Shown here piece by piece: positions 39,000 to 60,075 of a stretch of DNA of 64,000 bases. The position numbers and the translations under genes were made by a program. The notes beneath the pieces were generated by a model that was not told the DNA's origin, did not search any database, and saw only the letters and a list, made by a program, of their open reading frames with translations. Origin of the DNA: Candidatus Saccharimonadota bacterium (lineage in GTDB: Bacteria > Patescibacteriota > Saccharimonadia > Saccharimonadales > Saccharimonadaceae); NCBI GenBank assembly GCA_017480095.1, contig JAFVBG010000003.1, positions 124,001 through 188,000 of the forward strand, read 5' to 3'. Positions within the stretch are counted from its first letter, which is position 1. Each line of letters opens with the position of its first letter.

Positions 39000-39028
39000 A
39001 TTATACCATAAAAACAGAAGTTTATAAA
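39000..39028 (-). promoter_or_regulatory. glyS promoter, overlapping a structured element
   Basis: On the minus strand TTTATA (39023-39028), 17-nt spacer and TATAAT (39000-39005), 7 nt before the ATG. The -35 box lies inside the closing helix (39016-39029) of the structured element, and the spacer contains its U-run. Confidence 0.65.
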
Positions 39029-39209
39029 AGTTATTTTCCAGACACGTGTCCGTCCAGCCCATCTCAAGAGACGGCTACTTCTCACTCAAAGATGAAAATG
39101 TAAACATTTTCGCCTTTTCGTCTCGTCGTGCCGTCGCCATGGGTGGACGGCACTACTACTCGCGCTGCCGCGCTCCGTACTGTCTGGAGAAATAATTTTA
39201 TAAACTTCT
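39016..39209 (-). ncRNA. Structured RNA element, copy A (terminator-promoter insulator type)
   Basis: Read on the minus strand. An outer 14-bp perfect helix (39196-39209 with 39016-39029) includes the last codons of recO. It is followed by a second helix TTATTT/AAATAA, then CCAGACA/TGTCTGG (39181-39187 with 39038-39044). Inside, P2 is GCGC-GGCA-GCGC, then the conserved joining strand GAGTAGTAGTGC. P3 is CCGTCCA..CCCAT with ATGGG..TGGACGG, bearing a long branched tip. T5 follows the outer helix. Copy B at 59397 has the same core and fold with different helix sequences. Confidence 0.7.
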
Positions 39210-58901: not shown

Positions 58902-59333
58902 TTAGCCTTCGACGGTGACGCCCATAGAGCGAGCAGTACCAGCGACGACTTTGACGGCGCCATCGAGGTCGATAGCGTTCATCTGTTTCATTTTGACTTT
59001 GGCAATCTCTTCAAGCTGAGCACGAGTGATTTTACCAACTTTGTCAACATTTGGCTTGCCAGAGCCTTTTTGAATCTTGATCGCCTCGCGAATCAAATCA
59101 TCTACTGGCTGACCAAGGCAGGTCCAATCAAAAGTGCGATCTTCATAAACCTTGATGTGAACGATGACGTTCTTACCCATGAATTCCTTCGTCGCTTCGT
59201 TGAACGGGTTAATGAAGTCCATCATGTTGAGACCCCACTGACCGAGAGTCGAACCGACTGGAGGACCAGCGGTGGCTTTGCCACCAGGGATGCGCAACTT
59301 AAGGTTGCCGATTACTTTTTTAGTTTGTGCCAT
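58902..59333 (-). CDS. rplK: Ribosomal protein L11
   Basis: 143 residues. KVIGNLKLRIPGGKATAGPP, then GSTLGQWGLNMMDFINPFNEAT and the rRNA-binding C-terminal domain ending ARSMGVTVEG. Located at the GTPase-associated centre. AGAGGA precedes the ATG. It is transcribed alone, between structured element B and the terminator at 58863. Confidence 0.97.
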   Translation of the reverse strand: MAQTKKVIGNLKLRIPGGKATAGPPVGSTLGQWGLNMMDFINPFNEATKEFMGKNVIVHIKVYEDRTFDWTCLGQPVDDLIREAIKIQKGSGKPNVDKVGKITRAQLEEIAKVKMKQMNAIDLDGAVKVVAGTARSMGVTVEG

Positions 59334-59370: not shown

Positions 59371-59399
59371 ATTATATCACACTGAAATAGAAAAAGCAA
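59371..59399 (-). promoter_or_regulatory. rplK promoter, overlapping structured element B
   Basis: TTGCTT (59394-59399, minus), 17-nt spacer, TATAAT (59371-59376). The -35 box overlaps the closing helix and U-run of element B. Confidence 0.75.
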
Positions 59400-59515
59400 G
59401 TATCAGCATTTTTCCAGACACGCGTCGAAAACCCCTGTCGCTGTCGCCACAGGGGTTTTCGCACTACTACTCGCCTTGCCAGGCTCCGTACTGTCTGGAG
59501 AAAATGTGATACTTG
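59397..59515 (-). ncRNA. Structured RNA element, copy B (terminator-promoter insulator type)
   Basis: Minus strand. The outer helix CAAGTATCA/TGATACTTG (59507-59515 with 59397-59405) continues through CATTTT/AAAATG and CCAGACA/TGTCTGG (59492-59498 with 59414-59420). P2 is GCCT-GGCA-AGGC, then GAGTAGTAGTGC. P3 is GAAAACCCCTGT/ACAGGGGTTTTC with a GGCGACAGCG loop. GCTTTTT follows. It shares core, loop and layout with copy A at 39016, with compensating base changes in each helix. Situated between nusG and rplK. Confidence 0.75.
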
Positions 59516-59526
59516 TTTTTTCTGCT

Positions 59527-60075
59527 TTAGCTGATCTTTTTAACCTGTAGCGCATCGAGCTCGACAGGTGTTTCACGACCGAACATTGAGACCATAACCT
59601 TGAGTTTGCCTTTGACGCTATCAATCTCAGAGATAGCACCTTCGAAGCCTTTGAATGGGCCATCGATGATGGAGACGATTTCGCCCAGAGCGTAGTTGAT
59701 GGAGAATTTTGGATCTTCCACGCCCATGCGCTTCTTAATCTTCTCGATTTCTTTCTCGGAAACTGGGGTTGGCTGAGTGCCGTTGCCGATGAAGCCGGTG
59801 ACGCCTGGGGTGTTGCGGATGATGTACCAAGTCTCATCTGATAGCTTCATATCTACTAGCACATAGCCAGCAAAAATCTTGCGGTCAATCACCTTGCGCT
59901 TGCCGTTTTTAATCTCGATTTGCTTCTCTTTTGGTACGAGGGCGCCAAAAATCTTGCCCTTCATCGCCTCGCTATCGACACGCTGATTAATGCTGTCGGC
60001 GACTTTGTCTTCGTGACCAGAGTAGGTACTGATTGTGTACCAAGCCCTAGTGTCATCATAACGGTTTACTGCCAT
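59527..60075 (-). CDS. nusG: Transcription termination/antitermination factor NusG
   Basis: 182 residues. The NGN domain (ARAWYTISTYSGHEDKVADS-like start, RKIFAGYVLVDMKLSDETWY, NTPGVTGFIG) is joined to a C-terminal KOW domain (ALGEIVSIIDGPFKGFEGAI). It binds RNA polymerase clamp and links it to Rho or ribosomal S10. Co-transcribed with secE, 12 nt downstream. Followed by structured element B rather than directly by rplK. Confidence 0.96.
   Translation of the reverse strand: MAVNRYDDTRAWYTISTYSGHEDKVADSINQRVDSEAMKGKIFGALVPKEKQIEIKNGKRKVIDRKIFAGYVLVDMKLSDETWYIIRNTPGVTGFIGNGTQPTPVSEKEIEKIKKRMGVEDPKFSINYALGEIVSIIDGPFKGFEGAISEIDSVKGKLKVMVSMFGRETPVELDALQVKKIS

Follow-up and report, generated by a model that had tools for sequence, protein, structure and literature searches.

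To our knowledge, palindromic inserts that lie in frame within protein genes have been documented mainly in Rickettsia and its kin, and the agent that mobilises these Rickettsia palindromic elements (RPEs) has not been established. We know of no common core among the coding palindromes of Nematomorpha mitochondria, nor of evidence that they form a dispersed sequence family, and the byp elements found in mitochondria of Magnusiomyces capitatus are transcribed but untranslated. RPEs are described as palindromes of about 150 bp that are dispersed in a reduced genome, both in intergenic positions and, in frame, within numerous unrelated protein genes (Ogata et al. 2000, 2002, as cited in PMC10969869 and PMC6649704), and that lose repeat identity over time (PMC6649704). 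The same sources present the Nematomorpha palindromes as perfect inverted repeats in protein genes, whose arms are translated and kept matched and for which the authors regard template switching as one possible mechanism (PMC6649704); byp elements as numerous palindromic inserts in protein genes (PMC6649704); and REP/BIME elements and MITEs as short dispersed palindromes (PMC10969869). Template switching between inverted repeats homogenises arms and inverts spacers (PMC8604942) and can make a hairpin stem in one event (PMC8794818); these papers describe it as a mutation process and not as part of the life cycle of a repeated insert.

Here we describe a family of elements that shares features with each of these systems. 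A literature search covering openly accessible papers, with most subscription papers outside its scope, returned no report of such elements in Saccharibacteria. The likeness to RPEs is one of behaviour and is drawn from published descriptions: palindromes of about 100-150 bp are present in many dispersed copies and lie in frame in unrelated protein genes. Unlike RPEs, however, they reside in Saccharibacteria and have a branched tip that covaries, and the RPE descriptions consulted mention neither branching or covariation of the tip, nor a locus-specific outer stem in which each arm matches its own partner, nor two orientations at the same site. Homogenised arms, inverted spacers and stems that may arise in one event relate the family to template-switch mutations. 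In contrast to byp elements, the inserts stay open and in frame and, in contrast to REP/BIME elements and MITEs, their outer arms have no common terminal repeats and 35 of the 36 congeners analysed lack a Y1 transposase. A large in-frame palindrome family is present in unrelated streamlined bacteria, with empty orthologous sites and many copies per genome. We consider it likely that the copy on which this study centres, copy B, is an insertion of a dispersed, translated, RPE-like family of selfish palindromes whose arms are written and kept matched by template switching.

Copy B is located between nusG and rplK, the gene for L11, in the 64,000-nucleotide stretch that was analysed (the window). 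Including its locus-specific arms it spans positions 59397-59515, and its sense strand is the minus strand, codirectional with nusG (59527-60075), whose stop codon lies 11 nt before the element, and with rplK (58902-59333). Read from 59515 to 59397, copy B forms a long stem, P1, the top of which opens into a three-way junction with the two capping hairpins P2 and P3. The 5′ outer arm, CAAGTATCACATTTTC (59500-59515), is locus-specific and ends in a bulged C at 59500. It is followed by the 5′ strand of the inner P1 helix, TCCAGACA (59492-59499), and by P2 with its closing helix, TAC-GGA-GCCT-GGCA-AGGC-GA-GTA (59468-59490), which is the most conserved part of the family. P3 is composed of the 5′ strand GAAAACCCCTGT (59449-59460), an apical loop that a short duplication has made larger than in most copies (59439-59448), and the 3′ strand ACAGGGGTTTTC (59427-59438). 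The 3′ strand of the inner P1 helix, TGTCTGGA (59413-59420), then leads into the 3′ outer arm (59397-59412), which pairs with the 5′ arm and has one extra base. This structure agrees with the original prediction, which gave P2 as GCCT-GGCA-AGGC, a P3 of 12 bp and an outer helix CAAGTATCA/TGATACTTG, and which had placed the bulged C (on the 5′ side of both copy B and a second copy, copy A) and the additional 3′-side base much as we find them. The minus strand folds with -66.4 kcal/mol, compared with a mean of -31.1 for 200 dinucleotide shuffles (z -11.5), and the fold of the plus strand is weaker (-57.1 kcal/mol, z -8.9).

A putative rplK promoter was recognised by eye at 59371-59399 on the minus strand. 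It consists of an intact -10 box, TATAAT (59371-59376), preceded by TG, and a weak -35 box, TTGCTT (59394-59399); a promoter scan listed no promoter on the minus strand at nusG-rplK. The proposed overlap between element and -35 box holds in so far as the 3′ arm covers 3 nt of TTGCTT, but this hexamer matches TTGACA at only three of six positions. A terminator scan with limited loop and stem lengths gave no site at copy B, and T-rich stretches were seen by eye after the stem on both strands. At gathering level, Rfam matched tRNA alone in the window and placed copy B in no family. A match to FsrA at a relaxed level was at chance level, and this identity was rejected.

A covariance model built from copies of the genus detected exactly two places in the window, copy B (match 59507-59407, E 5e-24) and copy A (39017-39208, minus strand, E 4e-11). 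In agreement with the predicted common core, the 43 nt around P2 are 91% identical between the two. Copy A, which has an enlarged P3, lies between two genes whose open reading frame sequences appear recO-like and glycyl-tRNA-synthetase-like. The extra internal P3 domain of copy A (GACGAGACGARAAGGCGAAAATG..., 39060-39140) is also present in locus L020 and may represent a nested insertion or, alternatively, a long form that is ancestral; yet another enlarged P3 occurs in L246. The genome to which the window belongs (813 kb in 8 contigs) contains 13 strong full copies, and a wider covariance model (R2) gives 18 matches, so that the original prediction of a dispersed family, as opposed to a locus-specific riboswitch, was right and understated. 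Five of these 18 matches carry a further conserved outer module, GGGWGA...CAGGACCC, and represent a longer form of the element, recognised by eye (L331-L335, at C3:108954-109044, C3:310344-310434, C3:40584-40681, C5:40322-40411 and C5:27382-27472, respectively); in L331, L333 and L334 it lies in frame within genes matching ABC_tran, UvrD and TatD.

Beyond this genome, a covariance model based on 11 of its own copies (R1) matched 32 of 36 congeners and none of 24 genomes of other genera. With a model from 102 copies, at least 100 of 392 genomes of the order scored, at least 82 from the same genus and at least 18 from other genera of the same family, and none in other families; as 10 candidates were scored per genome, these counts and absences are lower bounds. 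The core pattern is also present in relatives labelled Candidatus Saccharibacteria, including Candidatus Nanosyncoccus alces. The family is scattered through a group of tiny gut bacteria. Matches in Streptomyces and other phyla nearly all lacked the P2 closing pair or the 3′ motif and were judged by eye to be due to chance. Carriage by viruses was likewise rejected: eight viral contigs matched the core pattern and none of them had the 3′ core motif GACRC. A set of 149 distinct copies was assembled from 99 of the 102 model matches (two near a locus edge and one duplicate being removed) and 50 motif-filtered pattern matches. A survey of bulges in three classes gave no clean rule.

The core of the element covaries. 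In an alignment of 11 copies to which the structure was assigned by hand, both sides vary in 19 of 29 pairs, compared with a mean of 11.2 in shuffles; covariation in the larger alignment, which was fitted to the model, leans towards the structure, and the hand-set one is less biased. The P2 closing helix, for instance, occurs as TAC/GTA, TCC/GGA, TTC/GAA and TGC/GCA. Because the structure covaries and the arms stay matched, a mere decayed inverted repeat, the counter-possibility raised together with the original prediction, is excluded. Base-pair covariation alone is no proof of RNA function, and selection on RNA as its sole cause was rejected: P3 mismatches situated between Watson-Crick pairs comprise 7 G-T and 13 A-C, indicating no wobble preference there. 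A further 84 C-C cells reflect a fixed internal mismatch of P3. For 41 of 87 copies the most similar core was one from the same genome, where 5.9 were expected, which fits recent spread or conversion inside genomes.

Most copies lie within protein genes. An open frame of at least 25 codons on each side spans 112 of the 149 copies, and homologues, sought among the sequences collected here, flank the insert on both sides in 106 of these 112. The flanks of the other 37 copies match one continuous gene in no case (0/37), and hence no out-of-frame interruption of a gene was seen. Of the six frames, 51% (0.511) are open across in-gene inserts and 38% across intergenic ones; with half of the frames closed, the openness of the inserts is not automatic. 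The spanned copies comprise 63 in sense and 49 in antisense orientation, and inserts are read in all three phases on each strand. According to Pfam, hosts in the own genome include genes for a LepA-like GTPase, TsaD, Dus, an RNA methyltransferase, an M1 peptidase, an ABC ATPase, UvrD and TatD. We take dnaE and comF, recognised from their sequences, to be hosts as well; Pfam gave no match on the pieces of either, and for dnaE homologues were also found. Given the open frames spanning 112 of 149 copies, the homologues flanking 106 and the absence of a broken gene among the other 37, the inserts are very probably translated rather than spliced or regulatory. Within genes they would be read through in frame as tolerated loops of about 25-40 residues, and a selfish nucleic-acid structure would thus have added short peptide loops to LepA, TsaD and other conserved proteins. 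Outside genes, insertions land mostly beside stop codons, as copy B after nusG: a gene end lies within the scanned distance of 34 of the 37 intergenic copies, and 25 of those 34 are sense-oriented.

The arms of the outer stem are specific to each locus. In a set of 99 copies, few mismatches interrupt their pairing at positions 9-26 and pairing is lost at about position 29-30, the stem being complementary to about 28 nt from the core, and their information content is near background from about position 16. Arm pairing exceeded the 99% level obtained when arms of different copies were paired in 134 of 149 copies. Copies in one genome hardly have arm sequence in common, outer-arm identity being 0.336 within genomes versus 0.298 between genomes. 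In lepA, 8 of 13 readable genomes have inserts, in both orientations, and these lie between two conserved segments, PAP and RALIFD. Inspection of L087, L088, L089 and L090 by eye showed an arm of native, conserved coding sequence opposite an inverted copy of it, and the same was observed at sites in two genes that we presume to be trmD and mnmA; which of the two arms is native is, by eye, independent of element orientation. An orthologue was scored as insert-free for 57 copies, representing 43 distinct sites, two of which on inspection hold an element of their own. Compared with empty orthologues (n=23), inserts are -11 to +46 nt longer than the tip (median +16), a scatter so wide that addition of one arm and overwriting of one arm are not separated.

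When two copies at the same site were compared, the arms of each copy paired better with one another than with those of the partner copy in 75 of 82 pairs. Both orientations occur at 13 of 25 sites, and one pair in trmD has identical cores in opposite orientation. These observations are consistent with an element that brings about 80 nt of conserved tip (inner P1, P2 and P3), whereas in the remaining stem, to about 28 nt from the core, one arm can be the native flank and the other its inverted copy. Polymerase template switching at the hairpin would most likely write this copy, and the same process during replication would keep the arms matched and sometimes flip the element, with mobility as the presumed source of new sites. 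As arms are readable as host-gene sequence copied in inverse, and remain matched while diverging between species, the mechanism is testable with close strains.

The other explanations that we considered differ in which of these features they account for. The original prediction proposed regulation or insulation of L11 expression. A structured leader, attenuator or insulator would explain the stable fold, the covariation and the position between nusG and rplK with its overlap of the putative promoter, but it should then be associated with this locus in relatives. The gene rplK is present in 39 of 40 genus genomes, and its upstream region was read at 30 loci, the own genome and 29 relatives. In 17 of these relatives nusG lies within 200 nt of rplK according to tblastn (for the remaining 12, nusG was either not located or located away from rplK), and the spacers of all 17, 36 to 171 nt long, lack the element. 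This comparison, which had been suggested along with the prediction, gave the element-free spacers that were named there as evidence against it and indicates that copy B is a lineage-specific insertion. Moreover, most copies reside in frame inside unrelated coding sequences in either orientation, Rfam gave no match to copy B at gathering level and a chance-level one below it, and the terminator scan listed no site within its loop and stem limits. Regulation of L11 is therefore unsupported and this reading, to which we give hardly any weight, is largely refuted; in the reading that we favour, any effect of copy B on rplK is incidental. An intron removed at the RNA level, or a bypassed element like mitochondrial byp, would join exon ends through the paired flanks and leave the proteins normal. 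The nearly universal pairing of the flanks, the conserved genes among the hosts and the G-T-tolerant pairing on the sense strand described below agree with it. Such elements would, however, be under no need to keep the frame and avoid stops as the in-gene copies do although only about half of the frames are open, nor to spare the genes around the other 37; in addition, since 63 in-gene copies are sense and 49 antisense, a mechanism acting on one RNA strand could serve only about half of them. We therefore regard this explanation as very improbable.

A classical MITE or REP-like element, mobilised by a transposase in trans and with the arms as its terminal inverted repeats, would be small, palindromic, dispersed, devoid of coding capacity and polymorphic in its sites, all of which is observed here. 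Its terminal repeats should be common to the copies, whereas the arms are locus-specific, and a Y1/REP transposase domain was found in 1 of 36 congeners; we consider it unlikely. Locus-specific arms would also be explained, without any copying, if the core entered only pre-existing hairpins, so that the matched arms were the target and not the product. Yet the 43 empty orthologous sites show no hairpin excess over their surroundings (mean z -0.19); three fall in the top 5% for hairpins, and two of these three hold an element of their own. Together with the arms in lepA and trmD that repeat conserved codons in inverted form, this makes target choice a most improbable cause of arm matching. The main alternative is independent reinsertion at hot spots, which would equally yield matched arms and both orientations at one site.

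One feature of the arms is not predicted by plain template switching, the process that we favour. Among arm mismatches flanked by Watson-Crick pairs, counted on the element sense strand at arm positions 12-27 in the 134 of 149 copies with well-aligned arms, 62 are G-T and 21 A-C. Counted by copy, G-T is in excess in 44 and A-C in 13 (sign test 5e-5, an optimistic value because same-site copies are not fully independent). The bias is the same for in-gene copies in sense (23:8) and antisense (25:5) orientation and thus tracks the element and not the host gene; P3 mismatches showed no G-T bias. The excess suggests that the sense strand is special, either as RNA or as a strand that is copied with wobble errors. 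Tentatively, and with low confidence, one may think of a new kind of mobile element that spreads as a self-priming single strand and duplicates its target in inverted form over a roughly constant length. The branched tip would fold on the sense strand and the 3′ end would prime on its own P1; copying of the adjacent target would then produce the inverted duplication without need for a transposase of its own, and the orientation-independent G-T excess would be a trace left by this copying or by an RNA intermediate.

Searches for reverse-transcriptase and Y1 transposase domains in the 36 congeners identified no mobilising enzyme. Retrotransposition by a host reverse transcriptase was rejected, RVT_1 being above cut-off in 23 of 36 congeners and missing in several copy-rich ones (G003, G004, G018, G025 and G026, each with 9 to 13 R1 matches). 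The own genome encodes two reverse-transcriptase domains (G000:C5:87060-87602 and C5:1891-2490), which, judging from their length, we presume may be of the diversity-generating retroelement type. A Y1 (RAYT) transposase was rejected as well, PF01797 being present in 1 of 36 congeners and missing from the own genome. Loss of SbcCD as a genus-specific permissive factor was discarded, since none of the 60 genomes, of which 24 belong to other genera, has SbcD above the cut-off, and SbcD therefore does not distinguish the genus.

Other inserts of similar appearance were also encountered. The nusG-rplK spacer of genome G004 (L083) and lepA of genome G001 (L091) contain a different, smaller palindromic hairpin family with a core like GGACACRCTCAAGG...GGTCCTCAA, which in lepA is in frame. 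Further in-frame inserts, encoding peptides like DNGSKLASEPRNDGRER, are present in L096, L104, L113 and L114 (tsaD, dus and an RNA methyltransferase gene), which code for conserved proteins of the genus, some of them at positions that are empty in the own genome; these possibly belong to other palindromic families.
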